DNA of 64,000 nucleotides from NCBI RefSeq assembly GCF_020177375.1, contig NZ_JAIWHV010000017.1:1-64000 (forward strand), given 5' to 3'. Shown here one piece after another: positions 13,250 to 25,543 of this stretch. Under the pieces are notes generated by a model. The model saw nothing but the letters and a program-made list of their open reading frames with translations. It was not told the origin of the DNA and ran no database searches. A program made the translations under genes and the position numbers. Each line of letters opens with the position of its first letter. Position 1 is the first letter of the stretch. The stretch is from Saliphagus infecundisoli. GTDB lineage: Archaea > Halobacteriota > Halobacteria > Halobacteriales > Natrialbaceae.

Positions 13250-13306
13250 ATGACCGAACCACACACGGAGCTTCGAAGCCTCGCCCCGCGAGGTGAGCCG
13301 AGATGA
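13250..13306 (+). CDS. Possible 18-codon leader ORF ahead of the glycan operon
   Basis: ATG at 13250 opens an 18-residue frame (MTEPHTELRSLAPRGEPR) whose TGA overlaps the ATG of the acyltransferase in the same ATGA arrangement used by the next genes. A Shine-Dalgarno-like GAGGTGA lies inside it, 7 bases before the acyltransferase start. It may serve translational coupling, but an ORF this short also arises by chance. Confidence 0.3.
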   Translation: MTEPHTELRSLAPRGEPR

Positions 13307-13911
13307 GCGCCGACCGGAGCCACGTCGATTGCGGCGCGGGTTCCCGCATCGATCCCTCCGCCGACGTGGGGTACGCCGCCCACGTCGAGGGGAGCGAGAG
13401 CCCGCCCCCGACGCGGATCGGGGACGGCGCGCGGATCCGCGCCGGAACGATCGTCTACGCCGGCGTCGAGATCGGCGACGGCTTTGCGACCGGCCACGAC
13501 GCCCTCGTCCGCGAGGAGACGACCGTCGGCGACGACGTCCTCGTCGGAACGAAGACGGTCGTCGACGGCGCGACCGAGATCGGCGACCACGTCAGCCTCC
13601 AGACGGGGGTCTACGTCCCCCGGGAGACGGAGATCGGATCGAACGTCTTCGTCGGTCCCGGCGCCGTCCTCACGAACGACCCCTACCCGATCCGGGCCGA
13701 CGACGGCCTCCGCGGGCCCACGATCGCAGAAGGCGCATCCGTCGGCGCGAACGCGACGGTCCTCCCCGGCGTCCGGATCGGCGAGAACGCCTTCGTCGCC
13801 GCCGGCGCCGTCGTCTGCGAGGACGTCCCTCCCGACACGCTCGCCGTCGGCGCGCCCGCACGCGAGCGGGAGCTTCCCGACCGGCTGGCGGGACCGAACC
13901 AACTCGCATGA
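13303..13911 (+). CDS. Left-handed beta-helix acyltransferase (WbpD-like UDP-sugar N-acetyltransferase)
   Basis: 202 residues built of hexapeptide repeats, for example the series ERIGDGARIRAGTIV-like turns, VGDDVLVGTKTVVDGATEIG, GSNVFVGPGAVLTND and VGANATVLPGVRIG, ending GAVVCEDVPPDTLAVGAPAR. The family transfers acetyl groups from acetyl-CoA; the sequence after the helix (PYPIR) and the neighbours match WbpD, which N-acetylates UDP-3-amino-GlcNAcA at C3. It is gene 1 of an operon with ATGA overlaps at every junction, and has a good ribosome site (GAGGTGA). Confidence 0.85.
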   Translation: MSADRSHVDCGAGSRIDPSADVGYAAHVEGSESPPPTRIGDGARIRAGTIVYAGVEIGDGFATGHDALVREETTVGDDVLVGTKTVVDGATEIGDHVSLQTGVYVPRETEIGSNVFVGPGAVLTNDPYPIRADDGLRGPTIAEGASVGANATVLPGVRIGENAFVAAGAVVCEDVPPDTLAVGAPARERELPDRLAGPNQLA

Positions 13912-15005
13912 GCCGAGTCCCCATCGCCGACCCCGACCTCGGGGCGGCGGCCGTCGATCGCGTGAGCGGCGTCGTCCAGAGCGGCCACCTCGCCGACGGG
14001 CCGGAGGTCCGGTCGTTCGAATCCGCGTTCGCCGACTACTGTGGGACGGCCCACGGGGTCGGAACCTCGAACGGGACGACCGCGCTCGTCGCCGCCCTCC
14101 ACGCACTCGGAGTCGGCGAGGACGATTGCGTCGTCACGCCCTCCTTTTCGTTTATCGCGAGCGCCAACGCCGTCCGGCTGGCGGGTGCGACCCCCGTCTT
14201 CGCCGACGTCGATCCCGCGACCTACACGCTCGATCCGGCGTCGGTCCGGGCGGTCGTCGAGGCCCGCGAGGACATCGTCGGGTTGCTCCCGGTCCACCTC
14301 TACGGGCTCCCCGCGCCGATGGCAGAGCTGGGAGAGATCGCCGACGACCACGACCTGTTCGTCGTCGAGGACGCCTGCCAGGCCCACGGCGCCGCGATCG
14401 ACGGCGACCGGGTCGGGAGCCTCGGCGACGCCGCCTGCTTCTCCTTCTACCCGACGAAGAACATGACCACGGGCGAGGGAGGAATGATCACCACCGATCG
14501 CGGAGAGGTCGCAGAGCGTGCGGCCTCCTACGTCAACCACGGCCGCTCGCCCGACGCCGGCTACGACCACGCTCGCCTGGGCCACAACCACCGGATGACG
14601 AGCCTCGCGGCCGCCATCGGGCTCGCCCAACTCGAACGGCTGCCCGCGTTCAACGAGGCAAGGCGGGAGAACGCCGCCTGGTACGACGACCGACTGGCCG
14701 AGTTCCCGGTCGAGACACCGTCGGTTCCCGAGGGCTACCGCCATGTCTACCACCAGTACACGGTCGCCTGCGAGGACCGCGACGCGCTGGCCGAGAGCCT
14801 CGAGGAGGCCGGCGTCGGCTGTGGCGTCTACTACCCGACGCCGATCCACCGCCAGCCCGCCTACGAGGACGTCGCGGCCGCCGACGTCTCCCTTCCCGCC
14901 ACGGACCGCGCCGCCGACCGGGTGCTCTCCGTCCCCGTCCATCCCGGTCTCTCGGAGGCGGACCGCCGTACCGTCCGCGAAGCCCTTTCGACCCACTACT
15001 CATGA
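13908..15005 (+). CDS. DegT/DnrJ/EryC1/StrS sugar aminotransferase (WbpE-like)
   Basis: 365 residues, PLP-dependent. VGTSNGTTALVAALHALGV is the phosphate-binding turn, VEDACQAHGA holds the conserved Asp, and SFYPTKNMTTGEGG contains the Schiff-base Lys184. GHNHRMTSLAAAIGLAQL and VYHQYTV are family signatures. It would transaminate the 3-keto sugar made by the adjacent oxidoreductase, using glutamate. The frame is open far upstream, but the start at 13908 overlaps the previous stop as ATGA and precedes the first conserved residues. Confidence 0.9.
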   Translation: MSRVPIADPDLGAAAVDRVSGVVQSGHLADGPEVRSFESAFADYCGTAHGVGTSNGTTALVAALHALGVGEDDCVVTPSFSFIASANAVRLAGATPVFADVDPATYTLDPASVRAVVEAREDIVGLLPVHLYGLPAPMAELGEIADDHDLFVVEDACQAHGAAIDGDRVGSLGDAACFSFYPTKNMTTGEGGMITTDRGEVAERAASYVNHGRSPDAGYDHARLGHNHRMTSLAAAIGLAQLERLPAFNEARRENAAWYDDRLAEFPVETPSVPEGYRHVYHQYTVACEDRDALAESLEEAGVGCGVYYPTPIHRQPAYEDVAAADVSLPATDRAADRVLSVPVHPGLSEADRRTVREALSTHYS

Positions 15006-16003
15006 CTGCCACCGAATCGACAACGATCGAACCGTCACCCCTCCGCGTCGGCGTCGTCGGCGTCGGCGCGATGGGCGCAAACCACGCCCGGATCTACAGC
15101 GAGATCCGGGAAGCCGACCTCGTCGGCGTCGCCGACCTCGACAGCGCGGCCGCAGAACGTGTCGCCGGCGAGTACGGCACCGAGGCGATCCCCGCCGACG
15201 TGCTGGCCCGCCAGTGTGACGCCGTCACCGTCGCCGTCCCGACGCCGGCCCACGAGACGGTCGTCCGGGACTGCCTCGACGCCGGCGCCCACGTTCTGGT
15301 CGAGAAGCCGATCGCCGAGGACCCCGCCCAGGCGAGGGCGTTGGCCGACCGGGCCCGCGAGGCCGGCCTGGTGCTCCAGGTCGGCCACATCGAGCGGTTC
15401 AACCCGGCGGTCCAGGCCCTCAAGGGAATCGTCGAGAACCTCGACGTGATCGCGGTCGAGGCCGAACGCCTGGGGCCGCCGGTCGACCGGGCGGGCGCCG
15501 ATTCGGTCACCGCCGACCTGATGATCCACGACATCGACGTCGTCAACTCCCTCCTCGGGGGAGAGCCCGACTCGATCGCCGCGACGGGAACCGACGACGG
15601 CCAGTACGCGACCGCGACGATGGAGTACCCCGGCGGCGTCGTCGCCTCGCTGACCGCGAGCCGGATCACCAGGAAGAAAGTCCGCCGGCTCGTGATCACC
15701 GCCGCCGAGTGTCTCGTCGAGGTCGACTACGTCGACCAGTCGGTGCTGATCCACCGCGAGTCGTTCCCCGAGTACGTCACCGTCGACGGAACCAACCGCT
15801 ACCGCCACGAGAGCGTCATCGAACGCCCCCGGATCGCCAACCGCGAACCGCTCCGGGTCGAACTCGAGTCGTTCCTCGCGGCCGCGTCGTCGGGACTCGT
15901 TCCCGAGGTCACCGCCGAGGACGGCATTCGGGCCCTGGAGACGGTCCGGCGGATCGACCGGCTGATCGGCGAGAGCGAGGGGATCGAGGTGCGGGCCGGA
16001 TGA
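15002..16003 (+). CDS. Gfo/Idh/MocA nucleotide-sugar 3-dehydrogenase (WbpB-like)
   Basis: 333 residues. LRVGVVGVGAMGANHARIY is the Rossmann loop, VLVEKPIAEDPAQA the EKP motif, LQVGHIERFNPA and DLMIHDIDVV the substrate domain. The GHIERFNPA signature is characteristic of members acting on UDP-N-acetyl sugars. In the WbpB role it oxidises C3 of UDP-GlcNAcA, providing the ketone for the aminotransferase upstream. ATGA overlap with both neighbours shows tight co-translation. Confidence 0.9.
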   Translation: MTATESTTIEPSPLRVGVVGVGAMGANHARIYSEIREADLVGVADLDSAAAERVAGEYGTEAIPADVLARQCDAVTVAVPTPAHETVVRDCLDAGAHVLVEKPIAEDPAQARALADRAREAGLVLQVGHIERFNPAVQALKGIVENLDVIAVEAERLGPPVDRAGADSVTADLMIHDIDVVNSLLGGEPDSIAATGTDDGQYATATMEYPGGVVASLTASRITRKKVRRLVITAAECLVEVDYVDQSVLIHRESFPEYVTVDGTNRYRHESVIERPRIANREPLRVELESFLAAASSGLVPEVTAEDGIRALETVRRIDRLIGESEGIEVRAG

Positions 16004-17397
16004 GCCGGGGTCCCTACGGCGCGAGCGAGGAGCGCCTCCGTGAGGGGTTCCACGCGGGCGAGTACCCGATCGCAGTGTACGGCCTCGGCAAGATGGGGCT
16101 GCCGCTCGCGGCCGTCTTCGCCGAAGCGACCGGCGCCGTCACCGGCGTCGACGTCGATCCTTCCGTGGTCGAGACCGTCGCTACCGGCGACTGCCACGTC
16201 ACGGCCGAACCCGGACTCGCCGACCTCGTCGCCGGGCAGGTCGAGGGCGGCCGGTTGACGGCGACCACCGACGGGGAGCGGGCGGCCCGGGAGGCGACCG
16301 TCCACGTCGTCATCGTCCCGACGCTCGTCTCCGGGGGCGAACCCGACCTCTCGACGGTCGAGGCCGTCCTCGACGTCGTCGCGGCCGGCCTCTCGCCGGG
16401 CGACCTCGTGATCGCCGAATCGACGCTTCCGCCCGGGACCTGCCGGGACGCCATCGTTCCTCACCTGGCCGCCGGAAGCGGTCTCGAACCCGCGGAGTTC
16501 GGCGTCGCGGCCTGCCCCGAGCGGACGGCCTCGGGGACCGCCCTCCGGGACATCCGGGGTGCGTACCCGAAGGTCGTCGGCGGGGTAGACGAGGTGAGCG
16601 CACGGGCCGCGAGCGCCCTCTACCGGGAGGTCAGCAATAACGAGATCCACGTCGTGGGCGACGCGGCGACCGCCGAGGCCGTCAAGGTCTTCGAGGGCGT
16701 CTACCGGGACGCCAACATCGCGCTCGCGAACGAACTCGGCCTCCTGGGCGACGAACTCGGGATCTCCGCCCGCGAGGCGATCGCGGCCGCGAACGCGATC
16801 CCGATGTGTGACCTCCACGATCCGGGTCCCGGCGTCGGCGGCCACTGCATCCCCAACTACCCCTACTTCCTGCTCGCGGGCAGCGAGACGCCCCTCGAGG
16901 TGATCCGCACGGCCAGAACGCGAAACGAGACGATGCCGGCGGCGACCGCCGACGCCTTCGCCGACGAACTCGCGGCCGCCGGCGAGGAGGTGGCGGGTGC
17001 GTCGGTGCTCGTCCTCGGACTCACGTATCGCCCAGGGGTCGCCGAGACCCGCAGATCGCCCGCGCTGGGCGTCATCGACCGACTGGAGGAACTGGGTGCC
17101 GACGTCGCCGCCTGCGACCCGCTGGTCGATCCGGGGGAGTTCGGCGTCCGCCCGGTCGCGGTCGGCGAGATCCCCGACCAAGAGTTCGACGGCGCGATCC
17201 TCGTGACGCCCCAGACGGAATTCGAGACGATCGAGTGGAAACGCATCGACCCGATGGTCGTCGTAGACGGCCGGGACGCCCTCGATCTCACGGGGACCGA
17301 CCACCGGTGTCGGACGCTCGCGGGGTCGGTCGGCGACCGGCCGCGGGTCGTCTCCCGCGCCGAACGCGAAGCACCCGACTACCTTCCCGATCAGTGA
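16000..17397 (+). CDS. Nucleotide-sugar 6-dehydrogenase (WbpA/UDP-N-acetylhexosamine dehydrogenase family)
   Basis: 465 residues in the UDP-glucose/GDP-mannose dehydrogenase family. IAVYGLGKMGLPLAAVFA binds NAD, VIAESTLPPGTCRD and ACPERTASG are domain-1 signatures, AEAVKVFEGVYRDANIALAN has the catalytic Lys, and GVGGHCIPNYPYFL contains the nucleophile Cys283. It oxidises the C6 hydroxyl of a UDP-HexNAc to the uronate with two NAD+. It would be the first enzymatic step of the pathway encoded by the operon. UDP-ManNAc is the alternative substrate; sequence alone cannot separate the two. Confidence 0.92.
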   Translation: MSRGPYGASEERLREGFHAGEYPIAVYGLGKMGLPLAAVFAEATGAVTGVDVDPSVVETVATGDCHVTAEPGLADLVAGQVEGGRLTATTDGERAAREATVHVVIVPTLVSGGEPDLSTVEAVLDVVAAGLSPGDLVIAESTLPPGTCRDAIVPHLAAGSGLEPAEFGVAACPERTASGTALRDIRGAYPKVVGGVDEVSARAASALYREVSNNEIHVVGDAATAEAVKVFEGVYRDANIALANELGLLGDELGISAREAIAAANAIPMCDLHDPGPGVGGHCIPNYPYFLLAGSETPLEVIRTARTRNETMPAATADAFADELAAAGEEVAGASVLVLGLTYRPGVAETRRSPALGVIDRLEELGADVAACDPLVDPGEFGVRPVAVGEIPDQEFDGAILVTPQTEFETIEWKRIDPMVVVDGRDALDLTGTDHRCRTLAGSVGDRPRVVSRAEREAPDYLPDQ

Positions 17398-18374
17398 TGG
17401 AGGTTCTCACGCTCACTACGAACGAGAACGCGCCGTTCATGATCCAGCAGCAGGCCGCCCTCGAGGAACGCGGCGTCTCCTTTAGCACCCTCTCCGTCGG
17501 CGGCGAGATCGGAAACGGAACCTCGAGGTCGCCCGCGGACTACCTCCGATTCTTTCCGCGAGTCCGGCGGGAGGCGAGAGAGGGCTACGACCTGATCCAC
17601 GCCCACTACGGGCTGACGGCGCCGATGGCCCTCGCCGGGCGGGAGGTTCCAGTCGTCCTCTCGCTGTGGGGCTCGGACGTCCACGGCCCCGTCGCCCCGG
17701 TGAGCCGGGCCTGTGTGCCCTTCTGTGCGGCGGTCGTCGTCATGTCCCCCGAGATGCGCCGGGCGATCGGCACGGGCGAGGTGATCCCCGATGGGGTCGA
17801 TCTCGCCCTGTTCCGGCCACGGGATCGGAACGAGGCCCGCGAGCGCGTCGGCTGGAACGGCGAGGGGTACGACGTCCTCTTTCCCTACCACCCCAGCCGC
17901 GAGGTCAAGGACTACCCGCGGGCAAAGCGGATCGCGGGCGTCGCCGACGCCCTCCTCGACCGCCCGGTTCGCCTCCGGACGGTTTCGGGCGTGGACCACG
18001 ACCGGATTCCCGACTACATGAACGCCGCCGACGCGCTCCTGCTGACCTCCCACAGCGAGGGGTCGCCGAACTCCGTCAAGGAGGCCATGGCCTGCAATCT
18101 TCCCGTGGTCACTACCGACGTCGGCGACGTCCGCGAGCGCCTCCGGGGGGTCTCTCCCTCCGTGGTCGCTCGAACCGACGACGAACTGATCGACGGGCTG
18201 ATCGGGGTTCTGGAACGCAGCGAGCGATCGAACGGACGGGAGGCCGCTCGAACGGTGAGCATCGAGGCGACCGCCGACGCGATGCACTCGGTCTACGAGC
18301 GGGTCTGCGGGGCCGATGCGGTCGGCGACGGCGAGCGGTCCGTCGATCCCGCCGTCCGACCGGACGCGCGGTGA
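17397..18374 (+). CDS. GT4-family glycosyltransferase
   Basis: 325 residues of GT-B type. The N-terminal domain has DLIHAHYGLTAPMALAG, a WGSDVHGPV acceptor loop and VIPDGVDLALFRP; the C-terminal nucleotide-sugar half has MNAADALLLTSHSEGSPNSV, then KEAMACNLPVVTTDVGDV with the E-x7-E signature. ATGA overlap with the dehydrogenase makes it the last gene of the operon. It likely transfers the uronate made by the operon, or the next sugar, to a lipid-linked or surface glycan. The first ~30 codons in the longer open frame are unrelated, so the ATG at 17397 is used. Confidence 0.88.
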   Translation: MEVLTLTTNENAPFMIQQQAALEERGVSFSTLSVGGEIGNGTSRSPADYLRFFPRVRREAREGYDLIHAHYGLTAPMALAGREVPVVLSLWGSDVHGPVAPVSRACVPFCAAVVVMSPEMRRAIGTGEVIPDGVDLALFRPRDRNEARERVGWNGEGYDVLFPYHPSREVKDYPRAKRIAGVADALLDRPVRLRTVSGVDHDRIPDYMNAADALLLTSHSEGSPNSVKEAMACNLPVVTTDVGDVRERLRGVSPSVVARTDDELIDGLIGVLERSERSNGREAARTVSIEATADAMHSVYERVCGADAVGDGERSVDPAVRPDAR

Positions 18375-18463
18375 CGCCTCCCATCGGCACGGTCACCGCA
18401 TCGGGACGAGACGGGGTGGTGTCGTCTGCAGAAGGGTGTGAGTATATATCGCTTCTGGCCGAT

Positions 18464-18477
18464 CATATAAATATTTT
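18464..18477 (+). promoter_or_regulatory. TATA box of the giant exported nuclease-fusion gene
   Basis: CATATAAATATTTT, the most AT-rich patch of the area, ends 26 bases before the ATG at 18503. It separates this gene from the glycan operon. Confidence 0.6.
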
Positions 18478-18502
18478 TGACCGGTTGGCGGGATCGACAG
18501 TC

Positions 18503-21500
18503 ATGGCCAACAGCAATGGCGGCGACCGGCTCGACCGACGTGGCTTCCTCGCGGGCGTCGGGGCCGCGGTCGGCTCGCTCGCGCTCCCGGCGACCGTCTT
18601 CGGGTCCGAGGCCGCGAGCGCGGCGGAGGGGGTCGAACTCGACCGGCTCACGTTCTACTCGTCGGCGAGCCAGATCGCCGCCGACGGCGAGAGCGAGCTG
18701 GGAGACGAGGATCACGTCGTCGTGTGGGCCGAGCCGACGGCATACAACTTCGAGACGACCGCCGACGGTCCCGAGACCGTGGTGTACGACGAGAACCCGA
18801 TCCCGCTCGTCTCGGAGGACGGCGGCGTCGTCGGGATCGGCACCGCCGACTTCGTCAGCGACTCCAACGGCGGCTTCGACGCCGACAACGAGCAGTTCAT
18901 GCTCAACCTCTTCGACGCGAGGATGGGCGGCGAGGGCACGGTCGTCTGGGACGAGGGCCACGACCAGTTCTACGAACTCGGCCTCGACTACTACGACTCC
19001 TTCCGTCAGTACGCCGGCGACTCCGGCTACGACCTGCGGGCGACGACGGACCTCCTGGGAAGCGGATCGCTCACCCTCCCCTCGACGGCGAGCCAGGTGG
19101 CCCCCGACGGCGGGGCCCTGACCGACCCCGAGCGCGTGATGGTATGGGCCGAGGACACCGCCGAGAACGTGGACAACGCGGGCGACGAAGCCGCACACCT
19201 CTACGGAGAGGACGAGGAGATCCCGCTGATCTCGCGCGAGGGGGACGTCGTCGGCTTCGGCACGCCCGAACTGATCGCGGACGACGACTTCGGCGACGCA
19301 AACAAGGAGTTCGCGCTCGCTCTCCTGGAGGACACGATCGGCGCTTCGGGAACCGTCGTCTGGGACGACGCCCACGACACCTTCTACGACTCCTCGAACT
19401 TCGGCGCGTTCGCCGACGCGGTCGAGAACGAGGGCTACGGGTTCGAGGCGAGCGAGGACCTGCTCGCCGGCTCCGGCGGCAGTGGCGGCGGCAGCACGGA
19501 GGGTGGCGTGCTGGCGGCCGACCCCGCTACCCCCGGCGAACCCTCGACGCACACCTGGACGCTCGAGGACCTCGCTTTCGGCGAGTCGGGAGCCGACGGC
19601 GACGAGGTCGACACGATCGCCGTCGAGTACGAAAGCGCCTCGCTGGACGGGCTGACCGACGACGACGTCACAGTGACGATGACCCGAACCCTCTCGGGCG
19701 GGCCGGACACGACCGAGATCAGCGTCAACCAGGGGAGCTACGGCGGGTCGTCGGCGACGTTCGACCTCTCGGGGAGCTTCCAGAGCGACGTCGCCGGTCC
19801 CGTAATCGTCGAGATCGACGGCGTCGAGAACCCCGCCGAAAGCGAGACGGCGACGATCACGCTCAAGGGTGACGCCGATCCAGTAAGCGTCGAGGCCGAA
19901 CTCGCGGTCGGCGACGGGATATCGGATCTCGAGGGCGCCGACCTGCTCGCGGTCCCGTCGCCAAGCGAGGCCTATACCGACAATGAACTCGCCGCGCTCG
20001 ATGACCACCTCGCTGGCGGCGGTGCCGTGTTCCTGCTCGATCAGTCCGATTACAACGGGTATGACGAAACCCCGAATCTGAACGCCATCGCCGACCACCT
20101 CGATCTCGGCTTCCGCTTCAACGCTGACCAGGTCGAGGACCCCGAGAACAACGCGGGCGCCCCCTACGTCCCGACGACCGCCAACTTCAACGACGGGTTC
20201 GACGTCTTCTCTGACCTCGGCGGGATCGGCCTCGCCGACGCCGACGGCCTCGTGGTCGCCTCGCCGACCGAGGCGTTCTCGGGGCCCGAACTCGACGCCC
20301 TCTCTTCGTTCGTCGATTCGGGCGGCGCCGTCTTCCTGCTCGACGAGTCGGACTTCGGCGGGGTGGGCAACACGGAGACGGGCTTCGACGAAACCGAAAA
20401 TCTGAACGGAATCGCCGACGCCCTCGAGCTCGCCTTCCGCTTTAACTCCGATCAGGTCAACAACGGCGACGGCGAGTTCGACATCGAGACGACGAACTTC
20501 AACACCGACTTCGACTACTTCGCCGAGCGCGACACCGTCCTCGGGATCGACTTCGATCCCGCGGAGACCTACTACGGACGGATCGTGAGCGTGATCGACG
20601 GCGATACGGTGGACGTCGAGTTCGATGGCGAGTACGACTACACCGACAGGGTCCGGACGCTCGGCTTCGACACGCCCGAGACGGGCGGCGGAAACGAGAT
20701 CGAGGAGTGGTTCGGGATCGAGAGCGAGTCCCATCTCGACGAGTGGGGCGGGAAGGCCGCCTCGTTCTCGCTCGATCGGCTGGCGCCGGATGGAGCCGGA
20801 ACCGGCGAGTCCATCGAGGGCCGGCGGATCGAACTCAGCTTCGACGAGGTCGAGCCCCTGCGCGGGAACTACGGCCGGCTCCTGGGCTACCTGAGCTACG
20901 ACCCCGACGACTTCGACGCCGGTCCCGACGGGAACTACACCGCCGAGTACAACCTCGAGATGGTCGAGGAGGGGTACGCCCGGGTCTACTCCTCGGGATT
21001 CGCGCGCCACGACGAGTTCGCGGCCACGGAAGAGGCCGCCCTCGCCGACGGCCGCGGGGTCTGGGAGGCGTCCGACTTCGAGGCCGTCCCCGAACACCGC
21101 AACGACCCCGTCGAGGAGGTGTACGTCCCGCGGGCCTCGAGCATCACGACGAGTTCGGGTCCCCTTCCGGCCGACCGGTCGCCGGTGCTCGCAGGCGAGA
21201 GCGCCGAACAGGACTCCCTCGGCGGCGAGTTCGAGAGCTACGACGACGCCCCGCTCGTGGGCGTCGACGAGGACAGCCGCGTCGGGATGGTCGGCGGGGT
21301 TCTCATCGACGAGGCCTACGAGGAGGACGAGGATCTCGGCGTGGACACGAGCGGCTACGGCAACTTCCCCCTGGTAACCAACCTCGCGGCCTCTCTCTCG
21401 GAGAACGACGGGGACTTCCTGATCGAGGGCGGCCACGCCCAGTTCGGTGCCGCCGGCTCGATCTCGCTCGAGGACGCCCGGTACTACCTCAGATTCGTCG

Positions 21501-22438
21501 AGGGCGTCGGGAGCCGCCTGCGCCAGATCAACGACGTCGTGAACACGTTGCCCGAGGAGGACGAACCGACGGCCGTCTTCCTCACCGCGCCGGGGCGGGC
21601 GTACACCGACGCCGAACTCGCCGCGCTCGCGGAGTACCGCGACGCGGGCGGCGCGGTCGTCCTCCTGGGAAGCGCCGAGGCGAGCGCCGCCCACCGGGGG
21701 AACCTCGAGGCGGTCGCGGCGGGACTGGGCTCGGACCTCCGACTGAACGACGACCGCGTGATCGATCCCGAGTCGAACCTCGCCGACGACCCCGGACTCC
21801 CGGTCACGGGCCGCTTCGACGAGCGGTTCGGGCTGTTCCATCCGGTCGGTGAGCCACCCGTCGAGGAGCTGACCGTCCGCTACGGCGAGCACGATCCCGT
21901 CTCGGTCGGCTCGGTCACCGGCGACGTCCACGTCAGCGGCTCGGCAGCGGTGCCGGCGATCGAGATCGCCGGCGACGTCGGCGGCGACCTCGTCGTGGAC
22001 GGTGCCGCCGAGGTCGGAGAGATCTCGGTCGCGGGCGACGTCGCGGGCGAGGTCCGAATCACTGCCGGCTCCCTGGTCGCCGACGTCGCGATCGACGGCT
22101 CGGTCGGTGGCCTCGCCCTCCGCGGGAACGCCGCGGTCGAGGGCGGTTTCTCGATCGGATCGGTCGCGGGCGCGATCGGCCTCGCGGGATCGGCGACCGT
22201 CGAGGGCGATCTCTCGGTCGCAGGCGACGTGGCCGACGGCGTGGACCTGAGCGGCGCGAGCGCCATCGAGGGGACGCTCTCCGCTGGGGGCGTCGGCGGC
22301 GACGTCGTCCTCCGGGGGAGCCCGACGGTCGGCGCCATCGAGATCGAAGAGCTCGAGGGCGAGGTGATCGATCGGAGCAACCCGCAGGTCGGATCGGCGA
22401 GCGGGCCGGGTCAGACCGGCCGGCGGGGCCGACCCTGA
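18503..22438 (+). CDS. Tat-exported chimeric protein: GATase1-like domains, thermonuclease domain, bactofilin-like repeats
   Basis: 1311 residues. A Tat signal (DRRGFLAGVGAAV, cleavage near residue 40) is followed by two related GATase1-like/DUF4350-like units (~45-189 and ~192-326; each ends in GTVVWDxxHDxFY), a GSGG linker, a beta domain (~336-473), two further such units (~473-571, 572-673) and a staphylococcal-nuclease domain (~688-860). That domain keeps the DGDT calcium site and the Arg-Glu-Arg catalytic set (VRTLGFDTPET, YGRLLGYL). A Gly/Gln/His-rich stretch, another GATase1-like unit (~1020-1117) and bactofilin-like beta-helix repeats (~1118-1300, GDVGGDLVVDG type) follow. The frame opens 279 codons upstream over the previous gene, but the ATG at 18503 follows a TATA box and begins the Tat signal. 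It probably cuts nucleic acids outside the cell. Confidence 0.85.
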   Translation: MANSNGGDRLDRRGFLAGVGAAVGSLALPATVFGSEAASAAEGVELDRLTFYSSASQIAADGESELGDEDHVVVWAEPTAYNFETTADGPETVVYDENPIPLVSEDGGVVGIGTADFVSDSNGGFDADNEQFMLNLFDARMGGEGTVVWDEGHDQFYELGLDYYDSFRQYAGDSGYDLRATTDLLGSGSLTLPSTASQVAPDGGALTDPERVMVWAEDTAENVDNAGDEAAHLYGEDEEIPLISREGDVVGFGTPELIADDDFGDANKEFALALLEDTIGASGTVVWDDAHDTFYDSSNFGAFADAVENEGYGFEASEDLLAGSGGSGGGSTEGGVLAADPATPGEPSTHTWTLEDLAFGESGADGDEVDTIAVEYESASLDGLTDDDVTVTMTRTLSGGPDTTEISVNQGSYGGSSATFDLSGSFQSDVAGPVIVEIDGVENPAESETATITLKGDADPVSVEAELAVGDGISDLEGADLLAVPSPSEAYTDNELAALDDHLAGGGAVFLLDQSDYNGYDETPNLNAIADHLDLGFRFNADQVEDPENNAGAPYVPTTANFNDGFDVFSDLGGIGLADADGLVVASPTEAFSGPELDALSSFVDSGGAVFLLDESDFGGVGNTETGFDETENLNGIADALELAFRFNSDQVNNGDGEFDIETTNFNTDFDYFAERDTVLGIDFDPAETYYGRIVSVIDGDTVDVEFDGEYDYTDRVRTLGFDTPETGGGNEIEEWFGIESESHLDEWGGKAASFSLDRLAPDGAGTGESIEGRRIELSFDEVEPLRGNYGRLLGYLSYDPDDFDAGPDGNYTAEYNLEMVEEGYARVYSSGFARHDEFAATEEAALADGRGVWEASDFEAVPEHRNDPVEEVYVPRASSITTSSGPLPADRSPVLAGESAEQDSLGGEFESYDDAPLVGVDEDSRVGMVGGVLIDEAYEEDEDLGVDTSGYGNFPLVTNLAASLSENDGDFLIEGGHAQFGAAGSISLEDARYYLRFVEGVGSRLRQINDVVNTLPEEDEPTAVFLTAPGRAYTDAELAALAEYRDAGGAVVLLGSAEASAAHRGNLEAVAAGLGSDLRLNDDRVIDPESNLADDPGLPVTGRFDERFGLFHPVGEPPVEELTVRYGEHDPVSVGSVTGDVHVSGSAAVPAIEIAGDVGGDLVVDGAAEVGEISVAGDVAGEVRITAGSLVADVAIDGSVGGLALRGNAAVEGGFSIGSVAGAIGLAGSATVEGDLSVAGDVADGVDLSGASAIEGTLSAGGVGGDVVLRGSPTVGAIEIEELEGEVIDRSNPQVGSASGPGQTGRRGRP

Positions 22439-22439
22439 G

Positions 22440-23060
22440 TCACTCGAGGTAGGCCACCGCTTCCTCGTCGCCCACCTGGGGGAACTCCCGGTAGTGGGCG
22501 CCGACCGCCCGGAACGCGACGGGGAGCTCGAGGGCGACGACCTCGTCGGCTTCGTCCTCGAGGCGCTCGAGGGCGTCGGGCGGCCCGACCGGGACGGCGA
22601 TCGAGACGGTCGCCGGTCGGGCCGCCCGGAGCCCCCGCAGGGCCGCGATCGCGGTCGCGCCGGTCGCCACCCCGTCGTCGACGACCAGCAGCCGTTTGCC
22701 GGCGACCTCCGGGACCTTTCCCCCCGGACGGTACTGCTCGGCTTTCGTCCGGGCCGCCTCGACCGCGCGGTCGCGTTCGCGCTCGAAATGGGCCTCGGAG
22801 ACCTCCAGTCGGGCACAGAGGTCGTCGTTTTGCCAGACCCCGCCCTCGCTCGTCGCGGCGCCGATCGCGAGTTCGGGGTTGCCCGGCGCGGCGATCTTCT
22901 TGGCGGCGACGACGTCGAGGGGAGCTTCGAGGGCGTCGGCGACCGGCCGGGCGACCGGGAGCCCGCCCCGCGGGATCGCGAGGACGACGTCCGCACGGGT
23001 TCCCCGGTCCTCGAGGGCAGCGGCGAGGCGCCGGCCGGCCTCGGTCCTGTTCTCGAACAT
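22440..23060 (-). CDS. Phosphoribosyltransferase-domain protein
   Basis: About 206 residues. The PRPP-binding loop is LLVVDDGVATGATAIAAL (~124-141); the N-terminus VVLAIPRGGLPVARPVADAL and AAKKIAAPGNPELAIGAA correspond to the nucleoside/pyrophosphate loops of the "putative phosphoribosyltransferase" group found beside dienelactone hydrolases in many prokaryotes. The substrate is unknown. A longer start at 23105 would add 15 residues without similarity; the ATG at 23060 is the family start (MFENRTEAGRRLA). It converges on the giant gene with one base between stops. Confidence 0.85.
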   Translation of the reverse strand: MFENRTEAGRRLAAALEDRGTRADVVLAIPRGGLPVARPVADALEAPLDVVAAKKIAAPGNPELAIGAATSEGGVWQNDDLCARLEVSEAHFERERDRAVEAARTKAEQYRPGGKVPEVAGKRLLVVDDGVATGATAIAALRGLRAARPATVSIAVPVGPPDALERLEDEADEVVALELPVAFRAVGAHYREFPQVGDEEAVAYLE

Positions 23061-23794: not shown

Positions 23795-23935
23795 CCCCCG
23801 ACCCCGCGGGTGCCTGCAGGGATTGTTTCCGTTCCCTGTTCGTGGTCGGTGACGTGCCCCGTCGTGACACCTCGATTTGGTATCGGTCGGTGACAATCAC
23901 GAACTCTTATCACAGTGGTCGTGGTGACCCCGCCA

Positions 23936-25543
23936 ATGGCTGAGGACCGCCCCGACGATCGGTACCGGGCCGATCGACTCCCCCTCCACCCGAGCAGGCG
24001 CACCGTTCTCGCGGCCGCGAGCGCCACGATGGCCGCGACCGCCGGCTGTACGGACGACGGCGGGGACGCGAACGTCGCCGATCCCGAGACCTTGGACGAC
24101 GAGGAGGCCACCGAACTCGCCGACAACGACAGCGGAGGCGACGCCAACGGAACCGACGACGGGACGGGCAACGAATCGACACCCGAAACCGCCACGGAAA
24201 CGGAGACGGTCAACGACACCGCAACGGACGACGACACCGGGTCCCCGACCGAGAACGGGACGGAGCTCCGAGAGGCGACCGAAAACGACACTGGGGAGAC
24301 GAAATCCGAGTCGCCGACGGACGACCCTACCGAGGAGACGGAGACCGAAACCCAGGAGACCGAGCCGGAAACGACCGAGGAGACCGAAGAAACCGACGGC
24401 CCCACCGAGGAGACGGAGACCGAAACCCAGGAGACCGAGCCGGAAACGACCGAGGAAACCGAGCGGACCGAGCCTCCGGAGACGGACGAACCGACCGAGG
24501 AGACCGCGACGGAATCGGAGACGACCGAGGAGACGGAGACCGAAACCCAGGAGACAGAGACCGAAACCCAGGAGACCGAAGAGACCGAAACCCAGGAGAC
24601 CGAAGAGACCGAAACCCAGGAGACCGAAGAGACCGAAGGAACCGACGAGCCAGGGGACGACGGTGACGGAAACGACGGCAGTAGCGGCGATGGGGACGAT
24701 GGCGGCACCGACGGTGGAGGAAGTGACGGCGATGACGGCAGTAGCGGGGACGACAACGATGGTGGGGAGTCCGACGGCGAAAGCGGAGACGACGGCGGCA
24801 ACGAGAACGACGGCGATGGCGGTGACGGGAGTGAGGAGGGTAATGACGATGGTGGCAACGGAAACGGTAGTGACGGCGACGGCGGTAGTGATGACGAGAA
24901 CGGCAGTGATGGCAACAACGGAGATGACGGCGATGGTGGTGACGGGAACGATGGCGGAGACGGCAGCGAGGACGGCTGGGAGGTGGACCACCCCTCGACG
25001 CGGAACATGGGCCACTCGCCGGTGATCGGTCCCGATCCGGAGGACGTGGATGCGACAATCGTGATGTTCGACGACCCGAGCTGTCCGGCGTGTGCCGACT
25101 TCGAGGCGGAGGTCATGCCCGACCTGCGCGAGCATACGGCGGCCGGCGAGCTCTCCATCGTCGTGCGCGGACTGGGCGTCATCCAGGAGTGGGGCGGCCC
25201 CGCACTCCAGTTCCAGTGGGGGACCTACGAACGCGACACGGACGCCTTCTGGGACCTCCGGGAGCACGTCTTCGAGGTCCAGGAGTCGATCGACGACGTG
25301 GAGGGCGCTCTCGACGAATCGGTCTCGTTCCTCGAGGAGAACACCTCCCTCGACGCCGGGGCGATCCGGGCGGAAGCGGAGTCGGGCGCCTACGAGGACC
25401 GGGTGGTCCTGGACGAGGACGCCGCCGGGCGCTCGGGCGTCGACGCTACCCCCTACTTCCACCTCTTCCGGGACGGCGAACACCGCACCGAGGCACGGGG
25501 TTACCAGAACTACCAGGTCTTCGAGAACGCCTTGGAGCTGTAA
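23936..25543 (+). CDS. Tat lipoprotein with thioredoxin-fold (DsbA-like) domain and long Thr/Glu linker
   Basis: 535 residues. SRRTVLAAASATMAATAGC (20-38) is a Tat lipoprotein signal with its lipobox Cys38. Residues ~40-370 are low complexity: first Asp/Asn/Thr, then Thr-Glu repeats (TEETETETQETE), then Gly/Asp/Asn-rich. Residues ~375-530 form a DsbA/thioredoxin-fold domain: IVMFDDPSCPACADF with CPAC (383-386), and GVDATPYFHLF with the cis-Pro loop. It would handle disulfides or thiols outside the membrane, the linker projecting it through the S-layer. The ATG at 23936 (seven codons inside the longer frame) gives a normal Tat n-region. It converges on the eRF1-like gene. Confidence 0.85.
   Translation: MAEDRPDDRYRADRLPLHPSRRTVLAAASATMAATAGCTDDGGDANVADPETLDDEEATELADNDSGGDANGTDDGTGNESTPETATETETVNDTATDDDTGSPTENGTELREATENDTGETKSESPTDDPTEETETETQETEPETTEETEETDGPTEETETETQETEPETTEETERTEPPETDEPTEETATESETTEETETETQETETETQETEETETQETEETETQETEETEGTDEPGDDGDGNDGSSGDGDDGGTDGGGSDGDDGSSGDDNDGGESDGESGDDGGNENDGDGGDGSEEGNDDGGNGNGSDGDGGSDDENGSDGNNGDDGDGGDGNDGGDGSEDGWEVDHPSTRNMGHSPVIGPDPEDVDATIVMFDDPSCPACADFEAEVMPDLREHTAAGELSIVVRGLGVIQEWGGPALQFQWGTYERDTDAFWDLREHVFEVQESIDDVEGALDESVSFLEENTSLDAGAIRAEAESGAYEDRVVLDEDAAGRSGVDATPYFHLFRDGEHRTEARGYQNYQVFENALEL
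24331..24640 (+). repeat. Thr/Glu codon repeats in the DsbA-like lipoprotein gene
   Basis: Two ~50-base near-identical copies near 24330 and 24405 (GAGGAGACGGAGACCGAAAC...), then three 24-base units of the type GAAACCCAGGAGACCGAAGA near 24560-24630. All are in frame, so copy-number change alters linker length without breaking the protein. Confidence 0.7.

Follow-up and report, generated by a model that had tools for sequence, protein, structure and literature searches.

In Haloferax volcanii, the surface protein HVO_1477, a putative lipoprotein of 327 amino acids (aa), combines a staphylococcal nuclease (SNase) domain with a lamin-tail domain (LTD). Cells deleted for it grow less well on DNA, which serves primarily as a phosphorus source (PMC3929857). 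GIFT domains form a separate family of modules, whose role in sugar binding has so far been proposed only (PMC7226087). Here we describe a gene of the haloarchaeon Saliphagus infecundisoli whose product joins an SNase domain to GIFT-type units. It lies in a stretch of 64,000 nucleotides (positions 1 to 64,000 of contig NZ_JAIWHV010000017.1, assembly GCF_020177375.1; hereafter the window), where an open frame runs from an ATG at 18503 to a stop ending at 22438, that is, 1311 codons (Table 1). We consider it reasonably probable that the encoded protein is an SNase exported by twin-arginine translocation (Tat), associated with the cell surface or the matrix, that would cut extracellular DNA mainly for the uptake of phosphorus or nucleotides, as HVO_1477 does.

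The evidence for the nuclease came from both sequence profiles and structure prediction. PF00565 matched residues 716-855 (E 5.9e-8, 33.6 bits against a gathering score of 21), and an AlphaFold model of residues 684-1311, built with an alignment of 35 sequences, reached a predicted local distance difference test score (pLDDT) of 92.3. The first 172 residues of this model superposed on staphylococcal nuclease with a Z of 17.7 and a root-mean-square deviation of 1.8 over 126 aligned residues, and the residues D701, R718, D723, T724, E726 and R792 corresponded to D21, R35, D40, T41, E43 and R87 of that enzyme. All six were invariant across 33 relatives with an uninterrupted SNase domain; the identity of the compared relatives was about 40-76%. 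A sequence-only reading of this DNA had proposed a thermonuclease domain with an intact catalytic site, and both proposals were borne out; we also looked for a failure of the SNase match and for a loss of catalytic residues in orthologues, and neither occurred. Judged from its sequence, the window protein very probably cuts nucleic acid as a nuclease, and conservation shows the SNase domain and its fixed C-terminal GIFT/DUF4350 partner to be what would be the working core. In about nine paralogues at least one whole GIFT-type unit splits the SNase sequence just behind its DTPE motif (read directly in L060, and by profile in L059-L063, L050, L099, L101 and probably L109, which is less clear), with catalytic motifs present on both sides of the insert where looked at.

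The best NCBIfam match of the domain was EcnA (NF047969; residues 688-856, E 7.7e-22), a nuclease of methanogens with a role in competence. This raises the alternative that the window protein cuts DNA bound at the surface so that the cell can take it up as genetic material. However, the score of 77.9 bits is well below the curated cut-off of 180, the EcnA model would match other SNases too, and no pilus or uptake genes were recognised adjoining the nuclease gene in the window, so that we regard a function in DNA uptake as very unlikely.

Export of the protein, also part of the sequence-only reading, agreed with the Tat motif DRRGFLAG at the N-terminus; of 79 relatives, 65 had a Tat-like motif ahead of their first domain. 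Asp and Glu make up 20.5% of the residues, none of the 1311 residues is a cysteine, and no membrane anchor-like hydrophobic stretch was found in them besides the signal. Tat export would place the SNase at the cell surface or in the matrix, where it could cut extracellular DNA, and perhaps RNA, and the freed phosphate or nucleotides would enter the cell through other systems.

The genes next to some of the relatives suggested what such an activity may be used for. The genes phnD, phnC and phnE lie directly 3' of the nuclease gene in L057 (the same record as L100, Halorubellus salinus), L064 and L105 (Halorussus ruber); in L108 the nuclease gene is 2 kb before phnDCE, and in L082 it is close to pstSCAB. 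The phn genes of L064 and the phnD and phnC of L057 were identified by NCBIfam and the others by similarity to these, while the pst names in L082 are our own reading of the sequences. PhnE matches average about 1.2 per genome, which gives a rough chance expectation of about 0.2 such neighbours in about 70 loci. This suggests that these nuclease relatives belong to phosphorus-linked operons, and because the neighbours of distant relatives are phnDCE or pst genes, phosphorus scavenging from DNA is favoured; as the main role of the window protein, we hold it to be somewhat the more probable view. The surface DNA scavenger put forward in the sequence-only reading was thus the best of the readings considered, with support from the phn and pst neighbourhoods. 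The phosphonate/phosphate-type ABC transporter loci extend over L057:3058-8544, L064:4302-9284, L105:5926-10582, L108:1426-8712 and L082:5113-13236.

The remainder of the protein consists largely of GIFT-type units, known in Pfam as ABC_transp_aux (PF09822), DUF4350 (PF14258) and IFT52_GIFT (PF23355); the three models exceeded their gathering scores (65.3 against 34.7, 48.4 against 30.4 and 38.9 against 27.2, respectively). Five GATase1-like units had been counted in the sequence-only reading. This count did not hold, since the four N-terminal pieces each cover half of the unit profile, with breaks all at positions 115-120 of 213; they are two N-halves and two C-halves, and with the one whole copy they amount to three domains' worth. 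The whole copy, directly after the SNase domain, spans profile positions 2-213 of 213 and was modelled with a pLDDT mostly >90. An active domain of the amidotransferase or peptidase type was excluded, because a protein with no cysteine lacks the amidotransferase nucleophile.

Comparison with the relatives suggested how the halves belong together. The common form, found in many genera, is D-SNase-D, in which D is one whole unit; one clade has N-D-C-SNase-D, and the clade of the window protein has N-N-D-C-C-SNase-D, in which one unit interrupts another to a depth of two, each time at the same seam. A balanced nesting N^k-D-C^k was observed in about 16 relatives. Because the relatives form this series of whole, singly inserted and doubly inserted units, we infer that the half-units of the window protein are nested as N1(N2(Ig)C2)C1, the first pairing with the last and the second with the third; growth by repeated insertion of one unit at a single seam of another is strongly supported by this series. 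At the seam between the halves, where relatives hold a whole copy of the unit, the window protein has lost this innermost unit, and what is left is the Ig-like module, which in L071 stands just ahead of the unit. The sequence-only reading had not named this module. The Ig-like module occurs in relatives, in some of them also in a separate downstream gene, and a search of its own genome gave no copy other than the one described here. A probable function of the GIFT-type units and the Ig-like domain is to attach to glycans at the surface or to hold the enzyme in place. The family displays a rare kind of protein growth, in which a domain was repeatedly inserted into copies of itself and into a nuclease.

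The C-terminal part, residues 1115-1311, was modelled as regular short strands and turns, with a pLDDT of about 90 until about residue 1290. When a family profile made from nine such tails was searched against all PDB sequences, the top two matches were 6ria (E 5.3e-4) and 2n3d (E 4.7e-3), which we take to be a Thermus bactofilin and the Caulobacter bactofilin A (BacA). The bactofilin model PF04519 was matched by 8 of the 9 family tails, with a best E of 1.6e-4 for a tail that scored 22.3 bits against a gathering score of 27.9, and a search with the window protein's own tail gave no match to it. The bactofilin-type beta-helix of the sequence-only reading therefore holds as a predicted fold, but not as membership of the bactofilin family.

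Fused and unfused versions of this tail occur among close relatives. The beta-helix is part of the nuclease protein in the window, L031 and L032, whereas in six close relatives (L033-L038) it is found in a separate, directly following exported gene; the separate protein has Ig-like modules in 4 of the 6, and carboxypeptidase-regulatory-like repeats in both of those scanned (P0008 and L038). Where the junction was read, the stop of the nuclease gene and the start of the downstream gene overlap as ATGA (L034 and L037) or are adjacent, as TAATAATG in L038. In L036:5400-10661 the nuclease frame is split into two open reading frames (615 and 826 aa), through a frameshift or a sequencing error. In a tree of the SNase domain and its D unit, fused and unfused forms share one well-supported clade of nine, so that a fusion or a fission took place within it, in a direction that the tree does not give. 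The pair of forms predicts that the nuclease and the exported bactofilin-like protein act together.

Other relatives carry LTD, PKD, fn3 or Ig modules in the same position, and because of this the tail slot looks like one that takes exchangeable surface modules. The beta-helix, which replaces these tails, would be a rigid anchor or a self-association module, and we give about an even chance to a role in anchoring or multimerisation. The formation of true filaments, in line with the polymerisation raised in the sequence-only reading, is improbable, and slightly more so is a model in which the exported enzyme assembles through its bactofilin-type beta-helix into filaments or sheets, as a polymerised, glycan-tethered extracellular nuclease layer; if this were true, close relatives would build the same layer from two coupled proteins, a nuclease and a beta-helix scaffold. 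That the beta-helix makes this chiefly a structural protein, of the surface or of filaments, with the active part secondary, could be argued from the predicted bactofilin-like fold and from the non-catalytic nature of most of its length. We find this hard to credit, given that few relatives have this tail, the others having exchanged it, whereas the SNase domain and its partner are retained and the active site does not vary.

The nuclease gene is present once in the genome of S. infecundisoli (4.5 Mb in 76 contigs), and its nearest relatives all belong to the same family, Natrialbaceae. The genome's other SNase gene (L124, on C44 of this genome, 1252-2925, minus strand) encodes 557 aa; by eye, its N-terminal part contains hydrophobic segments, its linker is rich in Thr and Glu, and its C-terminus resembles the Ca-binding Excalibur type. 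An antisense open reading frame of 1567 aa (18293-22996, minus strand) was dropped as a gene, as the homology lies wholly on the plus strand; such a long antisense frame is an expected product of a high-GC genome. Upstream of the nuclease gene, at 13303-18374 on the plus strand, there is a sugar-nucleotide/glycosyltransferase cluster with genes for a hexapeptide transferase, a DegT-type aminotransferase (our own reading of the P0003 sequence), a MocA oxidoreductase, a UDP-sugar dehydrogenase and a glycosyltransferase, which ends 128 bases before the nuclease gene. Downstream, at 23915-25543 on the plus strand, a gene encodes a thioredoxin-fold protein that resembles a lipoprotein and has a very long low-complexity linker rich in Glu, Thr, Gly and Asp. 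Because an archaeal-looking TATA stretch, ATATAAATATTTT, precedes the ATG by 27-38 bases, the nuclease gene probably has its own promoter. An operon with the upstream polysaccharide genes found no support in view of this stretch and of the orthologues, which are without these neighbours.

Four observations weigh against the explanation proposed above. The window gene adjoins the sugar-nucleotide/glycosyltransferase cluster; the relatives with phosphorus genes beside them are paralogues from distant lineages; the genome has a second, more ordinary SNase, so that the one in the window may do something else; and the N-terminal half was poorly modelled (pLDDT 45, from 7 sequences), its nesting being drawn from sequence only. 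The first of these would fit a matrix- or biofilm-remodelling nuclease, whose GIFT and Ig parts would bind a polysaccharide matrix and whose task would be to trim the extracellular DNA within it, not to supply the cell with nutrients. The short distance and common strand of the cluster and the proposal of GIFT domains as sugar binders (PMC7226087) are consistent with this explanation, and a glycosyltransferase 65-66% identical to that of the window was found about 5 kb upstream of the nuclease paralogue in L066 (near 3413) and L068 (near 3256). In contrast, the same sugar cluster was not found beside true orthologues of the window gene, which itself seems to be transcribed from its own promoter. 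Matrix remodelling is thus an unlikely alternative to the scavenging of phosphorus from DNA, the role we continue to prefer.

The core of the protein is widespread. In our own tally of best matches with E < 1e-80, about 102 of the 391 Halobacteria genomes sampled had an SNase domain and a following GIFT-type domain that together matched the profile over its full length, while in other classes of the phylum the match was limited to the SNase part. The base form, GIFT-SNase-GIFT with a lamin-tail, PKD or Ig tail, was seen in about 100 of these genomes, its core order being common in Halobacteria, and database labels of these proteins read only 'PKD domain-containing', 'lamin tail domain-containing' or 'thermonuclease family'. 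The sequence-only reading knew of no described system with this order of domains; the exact order was indeed unique to the window protein, but two relatives have a near-identical one and its core is the common haloarchaeal form. A phage or mobile origin was rejected, as no relative was matched in phage records, although nine plasmid (megaplasmid) records did match. The same distribution bears on a function in defence or antagonism, either as a secreted weapon or, as the sequence-only reading had considered, as a barrier at the surface whose nuclease would stop phage or foreign DNA: the PADLOC SNc+LTD candidate model matches weakly (1.3e-7), through the SNase fold, but the family is spread over many genomes, in most cases in the form of an enzyme exported by Tat, is missing from phage records, and no immunity gene or defence-island context was recognised. 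We accordingly give this explanation very little weight. Exported nucleases of this kind form a large family, now labelled by stray domains alone, that may be tied to haloarchaeal life on extracellular DNA, and the scavenging role would link to it a thinly studied process, the use of this DNA as a phosphorus source.

Table 1. Positions in the window of the nuclease gene, its promoter-like stretch and the parts of its product.
Feature	Residues	Positions	Strand	Basis
Whole gene, 1311 aa		18503..22438	+	Translation; single copy in own genome
TATA-like stretch, putative promoter		about 18465..18477	+	By reading of the sequence
Tat export signal (RRGFLAG...)		18503..18622	+	Sequence; Tat-like motif in relatives
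GIFT/DUF4350-type N-half 1, putative outer unit	42-186	18626..19060	+	Unit profile positions 1-117 of 213
GIFT/DUF4350-type N-half 2, putative inner unit	187-325	19061..19477	+	Profile positions 1-118 of 213
Ig-like module between half-units	330-462	19490..19888	+	Same module in relatives
C-half, putative partner of N-half 2	470-572	19910..20218	+	Profile positions 115-213 of 213; PF09822
C-half, putative partner of N-half 1	573-682	20219..20548	+	Profile positions 120-213 of 213; PF23355 best stretch 577-614
SNase domain	690-858	20570..21076	+	PF00565; fold Z 17.7; active site
Complete GIFT/DUF4350-type domain, directly after SNase	890-1114	21170..21844	+	PF14258 best stretch 1010-1104; alignment; model
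Bactofilin-like beta-helix tail (predicted)	1120-1300	21860..22402	+	Model; family profile against bactofilin chains

Compared with the described systems, the window protein resembles HVO_1477 in being an exported haloarchaeal SNase with the thermonuclease active site, and the LTD tail of HVO_1477 is the one found in relatives of the window protein; the use of DNA as a phosphorus source, proposed for HVO_1477, may by analogy be common to both. In contrast, the window protein is four times longer, has GIFT-type units and a beta-helix tail, is without a lipobox (as expected from its lack of cysteine) and gave no LTD match in its Pfam scan, though relatives have this domain. With the calcium-activated nuclease EcnA it shares the SNase domain, but it falls far under the equivalog cut-off, has extra domains and gives no indication of a competence role. 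Its GIFT-type units match three Pfam models of the GIFT/DUF4350/ABC_transp_aux group (GldG, IFT52, Wbp1, arCOG01314), but here they are split, nested and placed on both sides of a nuclease, with neither a membrane anchor nor an ABC transporter. The tail, like bactofilins and halofilins, is predicted to be a beta-helix; however, it is exported, fused to an enzyme and below the Pfam gathering score. The haloarchaeal GIFT-SNase-GIFT-(LTD/PKD) proteins have the same core and active site, although most of them carry one whole N-terminal unit and other tails where the window protein has nested halves and a beta-helix.

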